A stretch of 64,000 nucleotides of DNA from Psychroflexus gondwanensis ACAM 44 (GTDB taxonomy: Bacteria > Bacteroidota > Bacteroidia > Flavobacteriales > Flavobacteriaceae). This document shows positions 29,883 to 36,643 of this stretch, in pieces. The number at the start of each line of letters is the position of its first letter. The stretch's first letter is position 1. Made by a program: the position numbers and the translations under genes. The notes under the pieces are model-generated. The model was given only the letters and a program-made list of their open reading frames with translations. It did no database searches and was not told the DNA's origin. Where the stretch lies: positions 248,001 to 312,000 of the forward strand of contig NZ_APLF01000009.1 of the NCBI RefSeq assembly GCF_000355905.1, given 5' to 3'.

Positions 29883-29998
29883 GAAGACCATTGGGTAATA
29901 TGTATGAAAGTGTTAGTTTAGTTGATAATAAAATACCGCCTAAATAGAGTTATACTCTATAGTGGAGAGTTGAATAGGGTTTATACGGATGTTAGCGG
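29883..29998. repeat. copy R1 of the island's long repeat (3' part only)
   Basis: This 116-base segment matches the last quarter of the two long repeats at 33279-33727 and 34748-35190. It ends in GGTTTATACGGATGTTAGCGG immediately before the SMI1 gene. The rest of the stretch 29801-30014 has no gene. Confidence 0.75.
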
Positions 29999-30014
29999 TT
30001 ATTAAACAGATGAA

Positions 30015-30740
30015 ATGACAAATCTTGAAATAATAAAGAAACTTAAGGAGTCTACATTTACTGATGAAGATGGAGAAGATTACCAACTCGAATTTCAAGA
30101 CGGTTTAACTGATTCTGAAATTGAAGATCTGAAAGAACAATTTCCCAACAATAAAATCGATAACGAACTAATTGAAATCCTTAAGGAGACTAAGGGCTGG
30201 GATGGCTATGGCCCAGAAAGGATTTATTTCGACTCAATTGGCGAATTCGGATTTTGGGAATTATCTGCTAATTCTTTGACTCTCGGACATGATGGATTTG
30301 GAAATCATTGGATACTGGATTTGGACAAAAACGGAAATCTTGGTAAAGTATTTTTTGCCTGTCATGACCCAGCAGTGTTTGTCGTTCATTCTCAAAATCT
30401 AAACGAATACCTGCATCATTTACTTGAATTATATAACAGTCCTGATAAGTGTCATTTAAATGAAATTCATGACGAAACTGTAATGACAGTTTGGGATCAA
30501 AATAAGGTGTGTATTCCCAAACCCAAATTTGAAAACGAAAATCCCGAGTTCAAGGAGTTTTTAGCAAAATTTGAAGGAGAAGAATGGACAATAGCGGATT
30601 TAAGAAATGGACAAAATAAAGATGGATTTGCTTGGGGGAAATTTGGTCCTAATCAATTTACTGAAAGACATCCAACTGAATTAGTCTGGTCCATTAAGAA
30701 TAAGAAAAAAGGATTATTATCAAGACTATTTGGAAAATAA
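30015..30740 (+). CDS. SMI1/KNR4 family protein
   Basis: This 241-residue protein resembles the SMI1/KNR4 (SUKH) superfamily: after an acidic N-terminus it has the characteristic IDNELIEILKETKGWDGYG segment, then IYFDSIGEFGFWELSANSL and an HWILDLDKNGNLGKVFFACHDP strand-rich core. In bacteria such proteins are often immunity proteins against polymorphic toxins, but no toxin gene is adjacent, so this is an orphan. The gene is flanked by an exact 11-bp inverted repeat (29990-30000 and 30748-30758), which suggests that it moved as a cassette. Confidence 0.72.
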   Translation: MTNLEIIKKLKESTFTDEDGEDYQLEFQDGLTDSEIEDLKEQFPNNKIDNELIEILKETKGWDGYGPERIYFDSIGEFGFWELSANSLTLGHDGFGNHWILDLDKNGNLGKVFFACHDPAVFVVHSQNLNEYLHHLLELYNSPDKCHLNEIHDETVMTVWDQNKVCIPKPKFENENPEFKEFLAKFEGEEWTIADLRNGQNKDGFAWGKFGPNQFTERHPTELVWSIKNKKKGLLSRLFGK

Positions 30741-30747
30741 AACAACA

Positions 30748-30804
30748 AACCGCTAACACTATGTAAAAATGCATTAAAACGCATTTTACATTAAACGTTA
30801 TACC
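30748..30804 (+). repeat. attC-like recombination site 1
   Basis: The 55-base segment 30750-30804 begins CCGCTAACACTATGTA and ends GTTATACC. In between lies an inverted repeat (30761-30772 with 30781-30791) with one extra unpaired base. The terminal boxes resemble the RYYYAAC and GTTRRRY boxes of integron attC sites, and the left one is the exact complement of the box that opens the SMI1 cassette at 29991. The second site at 33917-33971 has the same length and start. No integrase is present. Confidence 0.5.
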
Positions 30805-30825
30805 ACATTAGAAAAAACTACCTTA

Positions 30826-32334
30826 ATGAGAAAATCATTATTTTTTTTCCTTCTACTGATCACCTCCTCCATTGGATTTGGGCAATCTATTGACGAGCCC
30901 TTTTCAAAGACTAAAATGTCAAAAGATTTAGCTGTTTTTAAAGAAATTCGACAAAAAGTAAATTCTGGACTTTATAAATACAGAACTAAACAACAAATCG
31001 ATAGTGTTTATAATTGGGCAGAAAACGAAATTAAAAACCTAACCACATATAGAGAGTTTTATAATTTAATTTCAGAAGTAACCGATTATGAAGGCAGCCT
31101 GCATAATGATACATCCATACCCAATAAGAAACGGCAAAATTTACGGAAAGAAAAAACTGGTTATTTCCCATTATCACTTAAATGGATACAAGGCGAATGG
31201 TTGATTAATTCAAAAAATGGAGAAATACCTTTAGGAGCTAAAATTATTTCAATTAATGATATTCCTATATCTGAGGTAATATCTGAACTCAATAAATATT
31301 ACACAACAGACGGACAAAACCTTACTGGAAAAAGACTTGGAATAAGAACACATTTTTCGAAATATTTCAGATTAAATTATGGCTTACAAACTAATTTCAA
31401 AATTGATTATAAGAAACACAATGCTAATAAAAGTGAAGAAATCATCATAAATAGCGTGAGTTATTCAAAATATTATGAAAGATTTAGAGCTAGGCATTCA
31501 AAACCTTTTGATCAAATCTACTATGCTGATCTAGATTATGATCAAAAATATTCCTTTCAAAAAATTGATTCATTAAGTGGATTACTTACTATCCATTCTT
31601 TTAGTATGGGTAATGAATCATCAGAAGAACATAAAGAATATGCTAAATTTTTAGACAGTGTATTTACCAAAATCAAAGAAAACAAAATTGCAAACTTGAT
31701 TGTAGATGTTCGCCAAAATGGTGGTGGTGATGACCCAAATGACCTTGTTACTTATTCATACTTAACGCAAAGAAAATTTCAAGAAAACAAACAAGCTTGG
31801 ATTAGTTTTAAAAAAATACCCTTACTCAAATATTATAACATTGGTATCCCTAAATTCATTAGACCATTACTTGTGGGCAAATACAATCGGCAACTTCAAG
31901 ATAATTTCCCATTAGAAAAAGATAAGAATTATTATCAAAATGAAAATAGCGATGACCACACGATAAGGTTACCTAAAAAAAATGCCTTCACAGGTAACAT
32001 CTACTTATTAATAAGTCCAGCAGTCGCATCAGCTGGTAGTTTATTTGCCTCCATGGTTGCAGGAAACGAAAATACCATAACGATAGGTGAGGAAACAATC
32101 GGTGGATATTACGGACACAATGGACATACTCCTATGGAATATAAATTGCCTAAATCAAAAATCGTAACACGGTTTTCAATAGTAAATTTAGAACAAGATG
32201 TACCGCAAAAATCCAATCAATCTTATAATAGAGGCCTATTACCAGATTTAGAAGTGACACAATCATTTGAAGATTTTATAAAAAATATAGATACACAAAT
32301 GAACTATACTCTAGAATTGCTAAAGGCGGAATAA
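30826..32334 (+). CDS. S41-family secreted protease (tail-specific protease type)
   Basis: The 502-residue product has a signal peptide (MRKSLFFFLLLITSSIGFG) and the peptidase S41 fold: an N-terminal helical part, a PDZ-like GAKIISINDIPISEVI segment near residues 138-153, NLIVDVRQNGGGDDPND near 291-307 and the nucleophile region SPAVASAGSLFAS. The serine is in the SAGSLF motif, but the usual catalytic lysine could not be assigned with confidence. It is probably periplasmic. It follows the attC-like site directly, and lies in the repeat-rich island. Confidence 0.8.
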   Translation: MRKSLFFFLLLITSSIGFGQSIDEPFSKTKMSKDLAVFKEIRQKVNSGLYKYRTKQQIDSVYNWAENEIKNLTTYREFYNLISEVTDYEGSLHNDTSIPNKKRQNLRKEKTGYFPLSLKWIQGEWLINSKNGEIPLGAKIISINDIPISEVISELNKYYTTDGQNLTGKRLGIRTHFSKYFRLNYGLQTNFKIDYKKHNANKSEEIIINSVSYSKYYERFRARHSKPFDQIYYADLDYDQKYSFQKIDSLSGLLTIHSFSMGNESSEEHKEYAKFLDSVFTKIKENKIANLIVDVRQNGGGDDPNDLVTYSYLTQRKFQENKQAWISFKKIPLLKYYNIGIPKFIRPLLVGKYNRQLQDNFPLEKDKNYYQNENSDDHTIRLPKKNAFTGNIYLLISPAVASAGSLFASMVAGNENTITIGEETIGGYYGHNGHTPMEYKLPKSKIVTRFSIVNLEQDVPQKSNQSYNRGLLPDLEVTQSFEDFIKNIDTQMNYTLELLKAE

Positions 32335-32369
32335 AATGTTTGCCAGCAAAGAATTGATGTGAAAAACAA

Positions 32370-32416
32370 GGTCTAAATAGAGTTATACTCTATAGAGGAG
32401 AGTTGAATAGGGTTTA
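32370..32416. repeat. copy R2 of the island repeat (short)
   Basis: A 47-base segment matches the CTAAATAGAGTTATACTCTA part of copy R1, followed by the GTTGAATAGGGTTTA end. It lies just before the following gene and lacks the terminal GATGTTAG. Confidence 0.65.
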
Positions 32417-32426
32417 AAGCAAGCTT

Positions 32427-33278
32427 ATGAAAAAATTCATTTATATAATAACGATAATTTTTGCAACCATGGCAAACGGGCAAAGTACAGATGTCTTAAT
32501 TTGGAAGTCCGACACTTTGAATCTTTACTCAAACCCATTGGAACTAAAGGCTGATTGGGAGCAATTAAACCAAGTCATTACAAGTCAAATTGGACTTAAT
32601 AGAGTTGAAAAATCAAAGGATTCTGTTATTTTAAGTTATTTATGGAGAAACTATAAAACAGAATGGTTTATTGAAAATGATAGCCTTTATTTGACGGATT
32701 TAAGTTCATTATACAGTAGTGAAATTAGTATCGGATTAAACAAAGTTTTCTCTACTACAGAAAAACGAATTTTTGCCGACTGGGTAAATTCTTCTTTAAC
32801 TACTTTCAGAGGAACCTGTATTGTTTGCAGAGGAACTCATCACAAAAACACTTCAATTTATCCAAATGAAAAACTTCTTGAATTCAAAAATGGAGTTTTA
32901 ATCAAAACCACAGATTATAAAAATTCAGTCTTAAGAGAATCCAAATTTTCATCTTCTGATCCAAACGTCTATCTGAGCTTTATTTACAGAAATGTAGAAT
33001 GGAGTAAGCTACCCGATTTGAGTAACAAACATCTTCTAGTTTGGGTAAGCGTTGAACCTAGAAAAAATGGAAAACTAAGAAATATTGACTGGGAGAACAC
33101 TTTTCTAATTGATGGAAGCAATCTTATTGACGACCCGGAAAACATTTATATAAAAGAGGCGGTTAGAATTGCAAAAAAGATTCCTGAATGGAATGTTGTA
33201 ATCCGACATAATAAAATTTTAAACCAAAACTTAGTCATTGTTTTTAACGAACAAATGAAGAAAAAATACGGCCGTTAG
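32427..33278 (+). CDS. secreted protein of unknown function
   Basis: The 283-residue product starts with a signal peptide (MKKFIYIITIIFATMANGQ), so it is exported. The C-terminal part, with SVEPRKNGKLRNIDWENTF, then IKEAVRIAKKIPEWNVVIRH, resembles the TonB C-terminal-like domain found in many Bacteroidota envelope proteins. It also contains a CIVCRG motif near residue 132 with two cysteines. I do not recognise a named family. It lies between the short copy R2 and a full-length repeat. Confidence 0.7.
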   Translation: MKKFIYIITIIFATMANGQSTDVLIWKSDTLNLYSNPLELKADWEQLNQVITSQIGLNRVEKSKDSVILSYLWRNYKTEWFIENDSLYLTDLSSLYSSEISIGLNKVFSTTEKRIFADWVNSSLTTFRGTCIVCRGTHHKNTSIYPNEKLLEFKNGVLIKTTDYKNSVLRESKFSSSDPNVYLSFIYRNVEWSKLPDLSNKHLLVWVSVEPRKNGKLRNIDWENTFLIDGSNLIDDPENIYIKEAVRIAKKIPEWNVVIRHNKILNQNLVIVFNEQMKKKYGR

Positions 33279-33727
33279 TAACTAAGCATTCGTGTGGTAG
33301 GTAGAGCTTGTGCTTTATTTTCGATAACTCAACATGAATTCCTCGATCCTTAGGGGTTAACTTAACTGCTTGTTGGTATATGATCTATGAGGGTTAATTG
33401 ATTTTTGGGAATAGTTTTTTAGGTTTAGAAGAGTAAACCTTTTAATTGTTTAGCTGATCACCAACTTAAGGGCATACAAATTCAAGTCATCGAGACGTCT
33501 AGCTATGTTCTGGCTAGGCTTTCATTACCATAGAAAAGGAAGAAGCATCAACTTACTAAAACCAAAAAAATAAATACTCGAGTTTTGTCTTTTCATAACA
33601 AAACCGTAGAAAAGTCTATTGGATAATAGGTATGAAAGTATTAGTTTAGATGAAAATAAAAAATCACCTAAATAGAGTTATACCCTATAATGACGATTTG
33701 AATAAGGTTTATACGGATGTTAGTGGT
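33279..33727. repeat. long direct repeat, copy A (about 449 bp)
   Basis: This segment starts TAACTAAGCATTCGTGTGG at the stop of the preceding gene and ends GGTTTATACGGATGTTAGTGG. It is repeated with scattered substitutions at 34748-35190, and in truncated form at 29883-29998, 32370-32416 and 36565-36643. It contains a terminator-like hairpin (33421-33443: AGGTTTA, GAAGAG loop, TAAACCTTTT). No open reading frame of note is in it. Confidence 0.85.
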
Positions 33728-33734
33728 AATTAAG

Positions 33735-33943
33735 AAAATGAAACTTCAATTCCATATATGATTGGTGCTTTAATTTGAGAACAAACAAATAGAATTTATG
33801 GAAAGGAAAAGCTATTTGAACTATCAAACTCTAAAAAAGAATTTTGGGAAAGCTTAGAAAAATTTGGGTTATCAAAAAATAACATAACCGAAGAACTAAA
33901 AAAAGAATTAAAGCGACCACCAACACTATATATGAAATTATAG
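33735..33943 (+). pseudogene. 3' remnant of an unidentified gene
   Basis: In one frame the sequence reads as the C-terminus of a protein: SIPYMIGALI, a TGA at 33776-33778, then EQTNRIYGKEKLFELSNSKK, EFWESLEKFGLSKNN, and a lysine-rich end at TAG 33941-33943. The pattern resembles the C-terminal tail of secreted metallopeptidase-like or DUF proteins, but the family is not identified. The upstream part of the gene is missing, replaced by long repeat A, and one stop interrupts it. Thus it is a decayed fragment of an earlier cassette gene. Confidence 0.6.
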
Positions 33944-33971
33944 CGCCCTTCGGGATGCTACGCGTTAAATA
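33916..33971 (+). repeat. attC-like recombination site 2
   Basis: The 55-base site begins CCACCAACACTATATATG and ends GCGTTAAATA. The right box GTTAAAT fits GTTRRRY fully. The left box CCACCAAC pairs with GTTAGTGG (33719-33726), which opens the remnant cassette, with one G-U mismatch. The centre contains a small CCCTTCGGG hairpin. It matches site 1 in length, spacing and its first 13 positions. Confidence 0.5.
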
Positions 33972-34734
33972 CTTAACGAACATTTTGACAAAACCAATCA
34001 AAAACAGAATAAAATTGAGAAAATTAATACTTGTATTACTAACAATCGGAATAATAAGTTGCAACTCGACTAAAAAAGAATCTAATTCAACAGAAGAGTA
34101 TTCTGATATAAAAATTGTTGGAGCACTGAAAAGCGTAATGTGGAAAGGTGAATTAGAGAGCAAAATTGAATTAGACAGCATTTTGAACAAGAAGGGACTC
34201 TATGGAATTGGACCTGTTAGCTATTTGGCGGGCGAATTACTAATCAATGACGGACAGAGTTACATATCGAAAGTAACTTCTGATTCTACAATGACAGTTG
34301 AGAAAAGTTTTGACATATCTGCACCTTTCTTTGTATATGCCAATGTAACTGAATGGAACGAATTTGAATTGCCATCAAATATTATATCAATCCAAGATTT
34401 GGAAAAATTTATTGACGAAAAAACGACGAAACGCAAGCGACCATTTGTTTTTAAATTAAAAGGAGAAGTTTCAACAGCTATTATTCACTCTCAAAACTTA
34501 CCAGAAGGAACCAAGGTCTCTTCACCAGACGAGGCACATCAGGGACAAGTTAATTATAATTTGACTGAAGAAGAGTCTGAAATAGTTGGATTTTTCTCTA
34601 CAGAACATAAAGGAGTTTTTACACATCACGACTCATTTGTCCATATGCACTTAATAACGAAGGATGAAAATAAGATGGGGCATTTAGACGAATTGGAAAT
34701 TGGGAATATGAAACTATATCTGCCGAAAAAATAG
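33955..34734 (+). CDS. acetolactate decarboxylase-like lipoprotein
   Basis: The protein aligns by eye with alpha-acetolactate decarboxylase (AlsD/BudA): GLYGIGPVSYLAGELLINDG, then the APFFVYANVTEW strand, IVGFFSTEHKGVF, and the metal-site region HMHLITKDENKMGHLDE with HxH and a later His, the zinc ligands, plus the Glu of GELL. The family converts acetolactate to acetoin. Here the N-terminus carries a lipoprotein signal: from TTG 34015 it reads MRKLILVLLTIGIISCNS, so TTG 34015 may be the true start and the ATG at 33955 lies inside the attC-like site. No acetolactate synthase is nearby, so the physiological substrate is uncertain. Confidence 0.8.
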   Translation: MLRVKYLTNILTKPIKNRIKLRKLILVLLTIGIISCNSTKKESNSTEEYSDIKIVGALKSVMWKGELESKIELDSILNKKGLYGIGPVSYLAGELLINDGQSYISKVTSDSTMTVEKSFDISAPFFVYANVTEWNEFELPSNIISIQDLEKFIDEKTTKRKRPFVFKLKGEVSTAIIHSQNLPEGTKVSSPDEAHQGQVNYNLTEEESEIVGFFSTEHKGVFTHHDSFVHMHLITKDENKMGHLDELEIGNMKLYLPKK

Positions 34735-34747
34735 AAACTATCGCCAA

Positions 34748-35190
34748 TAACTAAACATTCATGTGGACGTTAAAGCTTGTGCTTTATTTTCGATAACCCC
34801 AGATGATTGCCCCGATCCTTTGGGGTTGACTGAACCTATTGTTTGTCGATGATCTATGGGGATGAGTTGATTTTTGGGAATGGTTTTTTAGGTTTAGAAG
34901 AGTAAACCTTTTAATTGTGTAGCTCATTACCGACTTAAGTGCCTACAAATTCAAGTCATCGAGGCGTCTAGCTATGTTCTGGTTAGCCTTTCATTACCAT
35001 AGCAAAGAAAGCAGAATCAATTCACTAAAACCAAAGAAATATACACTCGAGTTTTGTCTATTCATAATAAAACCACGGAAAAGACCATTGGGTAATATGG
35101 ATGAAAGTATTAGTTTAGATGAAAATAAAACATCACCTAAATAGAGTTATACCCCATAATGAAGATTTGAATAAGGTTTATACGAATGTT
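34748..35190. repeat. long direct repeat, copy B (about 443 bp)
   Basis: This is the second full-length copy of the repeat at 33279-33727. It begins TAACTAAACATTCATGTGG and ends TTTATACGAATGTTACC. The same hairpin (34890-34912) is conserved while the sequence around it differs, so the hairpin may be functional. It is non-coding and separates the decarboxylase-like gene from the next lipoprotein gene. Confidence 0.85.
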
Positions 35191-35200
35191 ACCAAACATT

Positions 35201-35737
35201 ATGAAAAACTACAGAAAGCAGAAGAAACTAATAGTAATTTTAATTTTTGCTTCAATTTTATTGAGTTGTCAATCGGAGAAAAAAGTCTCAGAAAAACAGG
35301 ACTATTTACGTTGGGTTGGAGACATTGAACAAAATGATAAGATTGATCAACTGGACTTTAAAGCTTGTCACGGAGATGATGAAATCCTTCAATACTTCAA
35401 TTTAGGAGAAGGTCCAATTTATAGTGGAGAAAAGTCAGCAATTCTAAACATATTTAAATCAAGATACATACCACTGGCCGACAAAGAACAAAATGGCTTA
35501 ATCAGAATAAGATTTTTTGTAAACTGCAAAGGAAAAGCTGGACGATTTAGGATTTTTCAATCTGACTACAACTACCAAGAAATTAAATTTGACAATAGAA
35601 TTGTTACTCAACTTGCGGACATAACAAAAAGTATTGAAAATTGGAAAGTTTTATACAGAAGAGAAGTTCCTGTTGATTACTATATGTATCTTATTTTTAA
35701 AATTACGAACGGACAACTAACTGAAATTTTACCTTGA
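35201..35737 (+). CDS. lipoprotein with TonB-C-like domain
   Basis: From ATG 35201 the product is 178 residues and begins MKNYRKQKKLIVILIFASI followed by LLSC, a lipoprotein signal. An ATG at 35186 lies in the end of repeat copy B and is less likely. After a short linker it contains NGLIRIRFFVNCKGKAGRF, similar to the TonB C-terminal-like domain of envelope proteins. Function unknown. Its stop (TGA) overlaps the start of the next gene by one base (TGATG), so the two are translationally coupled. Confidence 0.75.
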   Translation: MKNYRKQKKLIVILIFASILLSCQSEKKVSEKQDYLRWVGDIEQNDKIDQLDFKACHGDDEILQYFNLGEGPIYSGEKSAILNIFKSRYIPLADKEQNGLIRIRFFVNCKGKAGRFRIFQSDYNYQEIKFDNRIVTQLADITKSIENWKVLYRREVPVDYYMYLIFKITNGQLTEILP

Positions 35738-36567
35738 TGAAGATATTAAATCTAATACTAGTGTTGTTTTCTTTTTCGAGTGTACTCGCACTACCCAATT
35801 GTGAGGCTTTTAAATATTATGGCGACACCTTAAAATATGAAGCCTGTAAAAAAGCAATGGAAATTAATGGTCACTACCAATTTAGTAAAGAATATCAAAC
35901 TATTCTGGATGAATCATTGAAGATTGACCCAACATTTGACTATGCTTATTGGGCAAAATCTATTGCTTATTTAAAAAGCGGCGATTTTGTGACTTGGAAA
36001 AAACTTATAGACAAAGCAGTTGAATATAACCCAAAAGAATATTTAGGATACCGAGGTTGGTGTCGTTATCAATTTTTCCGAGATTATAAAGGCACTATTG
36101 CAGATATTGAAAAACTAGATAGTTTAGTGGATTATGATATTGGACAATCTCAAAACGGAACATATCATCTAAACATTGCAAAAGGTTTATGCTATAAAGC
36201 AATTGGACAAAAAGAAAAAGCGATAACAATTATTGAAAACCAAATCAAATTAAACGAATATGAGAACTTTGTGGGAAAGTATGACTATTTGCATCTTGGA
36301 GTGCTTTATTTAGAAACTGGAGAATTTGAAAATGCCATTAAAATGTTTAAGAAGCAATCCCATACGAATGAATTGGCTGAAAATCAATATTATTCTGCTT
36401 TAGCTTTCTTGAGTTTAGATAAATTAACTGAATACAAATCTTGTTTGAAAAAAGCAAAAGAACTCTACGTTGGAGGTAAAAAAATGCACGATACTTATTC
36501 AAATCCAATGGACAAAATATATTTGGATAATATTGAAAATGAAATAAAAACCGCCTACAATAATTAA
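35737..36567 (+). CDS. TPR-repeat secreted protein
   Basis: The 276-residue product has a signal peptide (MKILNLILVLFSFSSVLA) and several tetratricopeptide-type helix pairs: PTFDYAYWAKSIAYLKSGDF, then IAKGLCYKAIGQKEKAITII, YLHLGVLYLETGEFENAIKM and YYSALAFLSLDKLTEY. TPRs usually mediate protein-protein contacts. ATG 35737 is used because it overlaps the stop of the lipoprotein gene; a TTG at 35734 is three bases upstream. It forms a two-gene unit with the TonB-C-like lipoprotein. Confidence 0.8.
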   Translation: MKILNLILVLFSFSSVLALPNCEAFKYYGDTLKYEACKKAMEINGHYQFSKEYQTILDESLKIDPTFDYAYWAKSIAYLKSGDFVTWKKLIDKAVEYNPKEYLGYRGWCRYQFFRDYKGTIADIEKLDSLVDYDIGQSQNGTYHLNIAKGLCYKAIGQKEKAITIIENQIKLNEYENFVGKYDYLHLGVLYLETGEFENAIKMFKKQSHTNELAENQYYSALAFLSLDKLTEYKSCLKKAKELYVGGKKMHDTYSNPMDKIYLDNIENEIKTAYNN

Positions 36568-36643
36568 GCATTGCTTTGGTCGGTAAACCACCATGAATGC
36601 CCATATCCTTCAGGGTTAACTTAACCGCTTGTTGGTATATGAT
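36565..36643. repeat. truncated copy of the island repeat (5' part)
   Basis: This 79-base segment matches the first part of copy A, including GGTTAACTTAACCGCTTGTT, and stops at GGTATATGAT. It marks the right edge of the island before the FNT gene. Confidence 0.7.

Follow-up and report, generated by a model that had tools for sequence, protein, structure and literature searches.

An integron-like cassette system with an Xer-like integrase seems to be widespread in Bacteroidota

The SUKH cassette and the integrase loci of Psychroflexus gondwanensis

The window analyzed here is a 64,000-nucleotide stretch of the genome of Psychroflexus gondwanensis ACAM 44 (contig NZ_APLF01000009.1, positions 248,001 to 312,000). 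It contains an island in which a gene for a SUKH-1 (SMI1/KNR4) protein is preceded by a leader resembling an integron attachment site (attI) and followed by a site resembling the recombination site of integron gene cassettes (attC; here, site 1). Further copies of the leader, a second and incomplete site (site 2), and relics of cassette genes complete the island (Table 1). Judging from comparisons with related genomes, the island seems to belong to a widespread gene-swapping system of Bacteroidota that is integron-like and appears to be run by a different kind of integrase, which would be an overlooked version in a phylum with few recorded integrons.

A first-pass annotation of this DNA had described the ends of the SUKH unit as exact complements, and both sequences, TGTTAGCGGTT at 29990-30000 and AACCGCTAACA at 30748-30758, are indeed present. 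None of 47 starts taken from other cassettes had an equally good end within the SUKH stretch. The folding of linear site 1 barely exceeded that of shuffled sequences (z of -1.46 for the top and -1.39 for the bottom strand). When the SUKH start was joined to its own end, as in an excised circle, z was -5.4 (top) and -5.1 (bottom), and 0 of 200 shuffles folded as well on either strand. We also used a covariance model, termed R1, of the inner stem and the AAC/GTT core, which was derived from 28 sites of other genomes and from none of this genome. With filters off, site 1 was the sole strong match between 29000 and 37500 (30742-30810, minus strand, 32.6 bits, E value of 1.4e-6), followed by a match of 11.1 bits (E of 0.14). 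The annotation had proposed an attC covariance-model search; R1 recovers site 1 and does not find site 2. The pattern AACACTA...AACGTTA occurs in site 1 and nowhere else in the whole genome. By its start/end match and its joined-end folding, the SUKH unit is a gene cassette with complementary R' and R'' boxes, as the annotation had proposed.

Two open integrase genes are present in this genome, on contigs C5 and C10. The C5 integrase (379 amino acids) is followed by a leader, GTT, and a cassette, so that on C5 the leader constitutes an attI-like site adjoining the integrase 3' end. The C10 gene encodes 375 amino acids; its contig stops 44 bases past the stop codon, which leaves attI out of view. 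At least 42 cassette sites were detected in the genome at an E value of 0.01 (R1; 150 of 1,472 candidates scored). The leader, of about 115 to 160 bp, also lies upstream of the SUKH unit and is recurrent, being reached by 27 of 29 repeat-query matches in the genome. Most copies extend to about GGATGTT and then continue into differing DNA, and three include the integrase 3' end. In total, 17 of the 27 pass directly into a cassette start box (read by eye; a pattern count gave 19, and L021 and L022 hold the same cassette). A simple TTG-N17-23-TANNTTT promoter pattern, the sole search made for a cassette promoter (Pc), had no match in the C5 leader.

Three side observations concern these loci. (i) The 27 leader copies (loci L009-L037) are distributed over contigs C1, C3, C5, C11, C19, C21, C24, and C27 and the window, and many begin at one point inside the integrase 3' end. 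(ii) C27:10335-10446 and C19:40535-40646 (L021 and L022) carry the same leader and the same cassette start near two contig ends and are probably one array piece split or duplicated by the assembly. (iii) A small zinc-ribbon gene lies divergently upstream of both integrases (L039:2180-2539 and L040:1237-1614; DUF2116 below the cut-off in one). Of 31 related loci, 21 also carry one, and its product is a possible regulator or cofactor.

Cassette arrays, strand asymmetry, and integrases in related genomes

A search with the C5 integrase returned 46 related loci, including loci of Aequorivita, Gelidibacter, Algibacter, and Profundicola and of many Bacteroidota metagenome-assembled genomes (MAGs). 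The leader after the integrase often closes with ATGTT or a similar sequence, and the start box next to it varies among species (GTT R N5-6 [CA]A); of 45 loci inspected in their 3' flank, 32 were judged by eye to run into a GTT start box. Arrays walked outward from attI reached up to six cassettes, and a fixed cut kept 48 of the 70 candidate sites, site 1 being among the 22 dropped. The kept sites measured 130 to 138 nt (35 sites), 185 to 199 nt (12 sites), or 69 nt (1 site). They show the attC architecture, namely, AAC...GTT inverted repeats (R''-L''-L'-R') able to fold. In all 48 start boxes GTT is followed by R, and position 11 is A. The fifth base is T (24), G (17), or C (7), and the following bases are variable, so that the start boxes depart from the RYYYAAC / GTTRRRY core. 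Genome G226 has 35 R1 matches, all on one strand, within 51 kb starting at the integrase.

The R1 and alignment set comprised 28 of 34 middle-length sites from named genomes; six at edges or divergent were omitted. R1 contains no pairing between the start of a cassette and its own end, so that a start/end comparison on consecutive matches is unbiased. Of 129 matches, 4 were omitted (three cut at edges and the weakest one), and 11 of the 125 used were without AAC or GTT in place. Of the resulting 92 cassettes, 53 paired over the full set of 7 variable positions and 81 over at least 6 of them, versus 0.4% and 2.7%, respectively, of mismatched start-end pairs. In the inner stem, both-sided changes that kept the pair were seen in 13 of 14 predicted pairs on the top strand and in 15 of 21 on the bottom strand.

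Comparisons between genomes place the breakpoints at GTT. A 1,051-bp cassette is identical at 1,050 positions in L054 (Gelidibacter) and L166 (genome G076, of a different family from the window genome). The two loci have a different attI ahead of it and a different cassette after it, the match ends a few bases past GTT on each side, and the two integrases share 42% identity. Ten related loci, including four from Gelidibacter, gave nine alignments that span the integrase at 86 to 96% identity and stop 3 to 15 nt past the attI G. The sequence next to the integrase is thus conserved up to GTT and is followed by a different first cassette. These patterns point to precise gain, loss, and exchange of cassettes. 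As a separate observation, several contigs end within about 2.3 kb, and often less than 1 kb, past the integrase (L051, L052, L059, L072, L073, L076, G370, G439, and G545), which would fit an array that is repetitive or that varies within the culture.

The sites are strongly asymmetric between strands. At wobble-type positions, the top strand mostly shows A.C, which corresponds to G.T on the bottom strand. With both wobble kinds weighted equally, the 48 sites had 51 bottom-strand versus 1 top-strand G.T in the R stem and 86 versus 5 in the L stem. A further 33 sites, taken class-wide from 13 other loci and including one cassette near-identical to one of the first set, gave 29 versus 1 and 55 versus 8, respectively. 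At start position 10 (counted from 0), A stands opposite C in 43 of 48 and 76 of 92 cases. The alignment fold energy was -24.3 kcal/mol for the bottom and -10.5 kcal/mol for the top strand, and 34 of the 48 sites had a defect-free 16-position stem on the bottom strand. This one-sided coding of bottom-strand G.T suggests recombination of the bottom strand, which would be the substrate marked by wobble pairs. At attC, the choice of strand has been assigned to an extrahelical base (available text of PMC2727003). A heuristic scan of the regions flanking ten true IntI genes returned no classical attC.

The integrases resemble Xer recombinases in their core. The distance between the KDR and LRHS motifs is 60 to 61 residues in 19 of 24 sequences, versus 102 in 9 of 29 IntI proteins (both motifs matched in each case). 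An alignment to IntI 2a3v shows a gap in the family, which is about 42 residues shorter between the two catalytic motifs; the integrases accordingly lack the additional (I2) domain of IntI. In the phylogenetic tree, 13 IntI sequences form a clade of their own (support of 100/99) with the 24 integrases outside it, and two other Xer-like genes of the genome are placed apart from the C5/C10 family. A structure search with the recombinase core returned XerA 5hxy_D (Z of 22.9; root mean square deviation [rmsd] of 14.4 over 250 aligned residues), 4a8e (Z of 21.8; rmsd of 7.0, 251 aligned), and IntI 2a3v_C (Z of 20.6; rmsd of 4.5, 259 aligned). The C10 copy exceeds the cut-off of NCBIfam NF040815 (227.6 versus 220 bits), and the C5 copy is below it (194.9). 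The integrases score on the IntI model TIGR02249, none above the IntI cut-off in their own genome. An extra N-terminal domain of about 90 residues is predicted to be alpha/beta. Pfam gave only subthreshold matches for it (DUF5710 with E of 0.006 to 0.04 in 3 of 8 sequences and HARP with E of 0.022 in 1), and the structure search barely covered this part. By its sequence, the enzyme is an Xer-like tyrosine recombinase and not IntI, though the system appears to work like an integron.

Of the 295 Bacteroidia species sampled, 147 carry the integrase family (E of 1e-80) and at least 190 carry sites (R1, E of 1e-5; here and in other classes, at most 10 candidates were scored per genome). Integrase and site co-occur in 128 of these genomes, 19 have only the integrase, 62 only a site, and 86 neither (Fisher p of 1.6e-16). 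Adjacent cassettes were found at 13 of 20 class-wide integrase loci, and the controls gave 2/58, 14/100, and 4/60. True IntI scored above its cut-off in 84 of the 296 phylum genomes sampled; the window genome's class contributes a single one of these (G037), and its family contributes none. Some genomes of other classes of the phylum hold both kinds of integrase together with R1 sites (e.g., G038), and therefore neither kind alone marks a class. Relatives of the integrase were also seen in records labeled as other phyla, where MAG contamination is possible, namely, L085 (Desulfobulbus MAG), L087 (Mollicutes MAG, with a cassette site 3' of the integrase), and L074 and L089 (Cloacimonadota MAGs).

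The island in the window

Table 1. Features of the island, in positions of the window (a slash within a sequence marks the predicted insertion point)
Feature	Position	Strand	Details
attI-like leader copy	29884-29993	+	Ends in ...TTTATACGGATG/TT; 88% identity over 111 nt to the leader 3' of the C5 integrase
Cassette start box R' (GTTAGCGGTTATT)	29991-30003	+	Predicted crossover 29991 (G) / 29992 (T); complements 30748-30757
Single-gene SMI1/KNR4 (SUKH-1) cassette	29992-30797	+	
SUKH-1 (SMI1/KNR4) protein gene	30015-30740	+	241 aa; Pfam PF09346, E of 6.9e-8, above cut-off
attC-like site 1	30748-30799	+	Short form: R'' 30748-30757, L'' 30760-30772, L' 30781-30793, GTT 30797-30799
Second cassette start (GTTATACCACATTAG) and peptidase S41 gene	30797-32334	+	Gene at 30826-32334; Pfam PF03572, E of 4.4e-15
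attI-like leader fragment	32363-32416	+	84% identity over 55 nt
Tail repeat	33280-33557	+	After gene 32427-33278; again after 34734, partly after 36567; direct repeats D1 and D4
attI-like leader copy	33575-33721	+	87% identity to the C5 leader
Remnant cassette and truncated attC-like site 2	33719-33967	+	R'' 33915-33924, inner hairpin from 33941, GTTA 33964-33967
attI-like leader copy	35045-35190	+	Runs to cassette start GTTACCAAACATT (35188); 86% identity to the C5 leader
Putative lipoprotein and TPR (tetratricopeptide repeat) genes	35186-36573	+	Relic of a two-gene cassette; decayed end 36551-36573

Taken together, the island reads as an eroded outpost of the system, with four attI-like leader copies (one a fragment). 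The SUKH unit is its one recognizable cassette, accompanied by half of another and by relics of cassette genes. The S41 unit has a start motif, and the search gave no matching cassette end or attC for it. The lipoprotein/TPR relic has an intact relative; window positions 35263-36564 are 80% identical to part of a complete 1,494-bp two-gene cassette with a full attC-like site in G555, a genome of a different species of the genus. No integrase was found in the island, and a tRNA search of the window found none. Of 20 relatives in the genus, 17 gave a match to the mutase gene that adjoins the island (one more had only a 39-base piece, and two had no match), and none of the island genes was matched beside it in these relatives. 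An alpha-acetolactate decarboxylase-like gene lies at 33955-34734, with a stretch resembling a lipoprotein signal near its start. The flanks of homologues of this gene and of the S41 gene in relatives (L198-L201) showed no cassette ends; therefore, some passenger genes there are not cassette-borne.

Another type of cassette end was observed, whose R'' closes with AAT in place of AAC and has AACTAA and a further hairpin behind it; this type of end can join a leader copy in the Psychroflexus genome. Such ends are located at 33280-33557, 34749-35026, and 36562-36643 of the window, on contigs C27 and C1 (L044 and L041), and in L055. Related tails elsewhere in the genome follow cassette ends of the type ..CAAT/AACTAAGCAT. 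The AAT-type end could be an alternative, long kind of site, or it could mark where an array ends.

Several further points of the first-pass annotation can be judged here. For site 2, GTTAGTGG (33719) and CCACCAAC (33917-33924) are present, and the single wobble that it noted is an A.C on the top strand, equal to a G.T on the bottom; the closing GTTA lies at 33964-33967 and not at 33968-33971. The complementarity of site 2 is unremarkable, as the best end for its start was elsewhere. No inner arm was seen pairing across it, its right half is missing, and R1 gave only partial matches at chance level (3 to 4 bits, E of 6 to 9). Site 2 is at most a truncated site. The common length of 55 bp that it noted does not characterize intact sites, as the 48 kept sites from other loci of this and related genomes measure 69, 130 to 138, or 185 to 199 nt. 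The annotation had also compared the island to a cluster of attC sites lacking an integron integrase (CALIN). This agrees with the absence of an integrase from the island; a cluster is defined by two or more attC less than 4 kb apart (PMC9668308, in the available text), and the island, with one recognizable site only, falls outside this definition. At the level of the genome, "integrase-less" does not apply, given the C5 and C10 genes. The annotation had advised looking for an IntI gene elsewhere, which yielded these two Xer-like enzymes and none above the IntI cut-off, and comparing relatives, in which gain or loss is visible at points of this kind (the shared cassette, the attI breakpoints, and the G555 cassette). 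Its integron reading stands as regards cassette anatomy. It does not extend to an IntI integron, since the I2 domain is missing from the enzyme, the family lies outside the IntI clade, the R boxes depart from GTTRRRY/RYYYAAC, and the strand seems to be marked in another way.

Interpretation, rival explanations, and known systems

The data are very probably explained by an integron-like cassette-capture system with its own integrase lineage. An Xer-like tyrosine recombinase is encoded directly upstream of an attI-like site ending in ...G/TT. A free circular cassette would carry one site, composed of cassette-specific complementary R''/R' arms, a short unpaired spacer, an inner L''/L' stem, and a variable loop. 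Its bottom strand would fold as a hairpin, and the integrase would join the folded strand to attI at G/TT; the new cassette would land beside the integrase, and older cassettes would shift outward. The comparisons show the anatomy, covariation, strand asymmetry, precise breakpoints in related genomes, and one cassette shared between distant integrons. We infer that the attI-adjacent integrase is the enzyme, that the folded bottom strand is its substrate, and that the intermediates are circular.

A number of points weigh against this interpretation. (i) All of the evidence comes from comparing sequences. (ii) The grouping of the 24 integrases on one side of the tree has weak support (66/88). 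(iii) Site 1 is missing from the genome-wide R1 list (150 of 1,472 candidates scored) and is a short, weak member of the site family. (iv) A defect-free 16-bp L stem on the bottom strand was found in just 11 of 33 class-wide sites versus 34 of 48. (v) At the cut used, 62 of 190 site-bearing genomes are without the integrase, and 7 of 20 class-wide integrase loci are without an adjacent cassette; two of these seven had fewer than 700 bases past the integrase, and G535 has an R1 match about 1 kb downstream. (vi) The cassette finder accepted an appreciable share of decoys: shuffled starts passed in 52 of 478 cases, windows lying upstream of integrases in 14 of 100, and windows of a reverse-strand control in 19 of 68, this last control being unsuitable because the sites are near-palindromic. 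(vii) The multiplication of leader and tail repeats in this genome is not explained by the cassette model.

Least probable among the alternatives, and hardly credible in our view, is that the hairpins are ordinary transcription terminators or repeats of the repetitive extragenic palindrome (REP) type at gene ends and that the complementary boxes are coincidental. The sites do lie directly past stop codons and can fold, but their outer arms are gene specific and match the sequence ahead of the same gene, the arms covary, breakpoints between genomes fall at GTT, and an Rfam scan of the window gave 0 families at gathering score. It is also very improbable that this is a canonical integron or CALIN whose ordinary attC sites are moved by an IntI located elsewhere. 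The logic of attI, cassettes, and AAC/GTT ends is the same, and the integrases score on TIGR02249; however, the genome has no IntI above the cut-off, one sampled genome of the class and none of the family has one, the integrase family is about 42 residues shorter, IntI forms its own well-supported clade, and the R boxes deviate from GTTRRRY.

Two other explanations deserve more weight, although both appear unlikely. The integrase of the same cassette system could act on double-stranded palindromes, in an Xer/dif-like manner, and not on folded single strands. The missing I2 domain, held to be an adaptation to the extrahelical bases of single-stranded attC (available text of PMC4792948), and the unbroken 16-bp bottom-strand stem in 34 of 48 sites would fit such a mode of action; the strongly one-sided bottom-strand G.T coding would have no obvious use in a duplex, and most sites have long loops. 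Somewhat less plausible again is that, in this genome, the repeated leader and tail mark the termini of a transposon of the tyrosine-recombinase type, the island having arisen by transposition or by homologous recombination between copies, and not by cassette insertion. The abundance of leader copies, many with the same start inside the integrase 3' end, and the long tail repeats are in line with this scenario, but 17 of the 27 copies break into a cassette start box, and the SUKH unit comes with a matching end and a site of its own.

For the integron-like system, we lean moderately toward a fuller claim, namely, that it is a second integron lineage whose I2-less Xer-like integrase occurs in roughly half of the class's sampled species. 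On this view, the enzyme would act on cassette sites in folded single-stranded form, and G.T pairs, not extrahelical bases, would distinguish the strand. The I2 domain has been described as the basis of attC processing (PMC7790495) and has been tied to extrahelical bases, for which a "chicken-egg paradox" was stated (PMC4792948; both in the text available). A survey chose integron integrases by the additional domain (PMC2426708, available part), so that a cassette system without it would be missed; the accessible part of the IntegronFinder 2.0 article names one complete integron for Bacteroidetes proper, in Salinibacter (PMC9024848). A literature search on titles and abstract openings, with preprints outside its range, found no paper describing cassettes with an I2-less integrase in Bacteroidota. 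If true, the claim would mean either that the integron was invented independently or that a state predating the acquisition of I2 has survived, and it would offer a natural answer to the paradox. Should the mechanism prove correct, a major phylum would possess a large cassette pool of its own, and a natural I2-less enzyme would allow a direct test of whether single-strand recombination requires I2.

Three known groups come closest to these elements. Like integrons with IntI, including archaeal ones, they have an attI beside the integrase, insertion at G/TT, AAC...GTT cassette ends, R''-L''-L'-R' folding, signs of bottom-strand use, and large chromosomal arrays; archaeal attI likewise lies directly downstream of intI (available text of PMC9668308). 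Unlike integrons, they have an integrase without the IntI-specific domain and outside the IntI clade, cassette-specific R boxes of about 10 nt, an apparent marking of the strand through G.T pairs, many sites whose stem is free of defects, an extra N-terminal domain, and a sublineage with the divergent zinc-ribbon partner gene. With the Xer proteins (XerA/XerC/XerD and XerH) they share the recombinase core, as seen in the top structural matches and in NF040815, whereas the linkage to attI and cassette arrays and the additional N-terminal domain set them apart. The integron-like subgroup of tyrosine recombinases of Smyshlyaev et al. (2021) contains members without the insertion, for which cassettes and sites are not described in the accessible part of that study.

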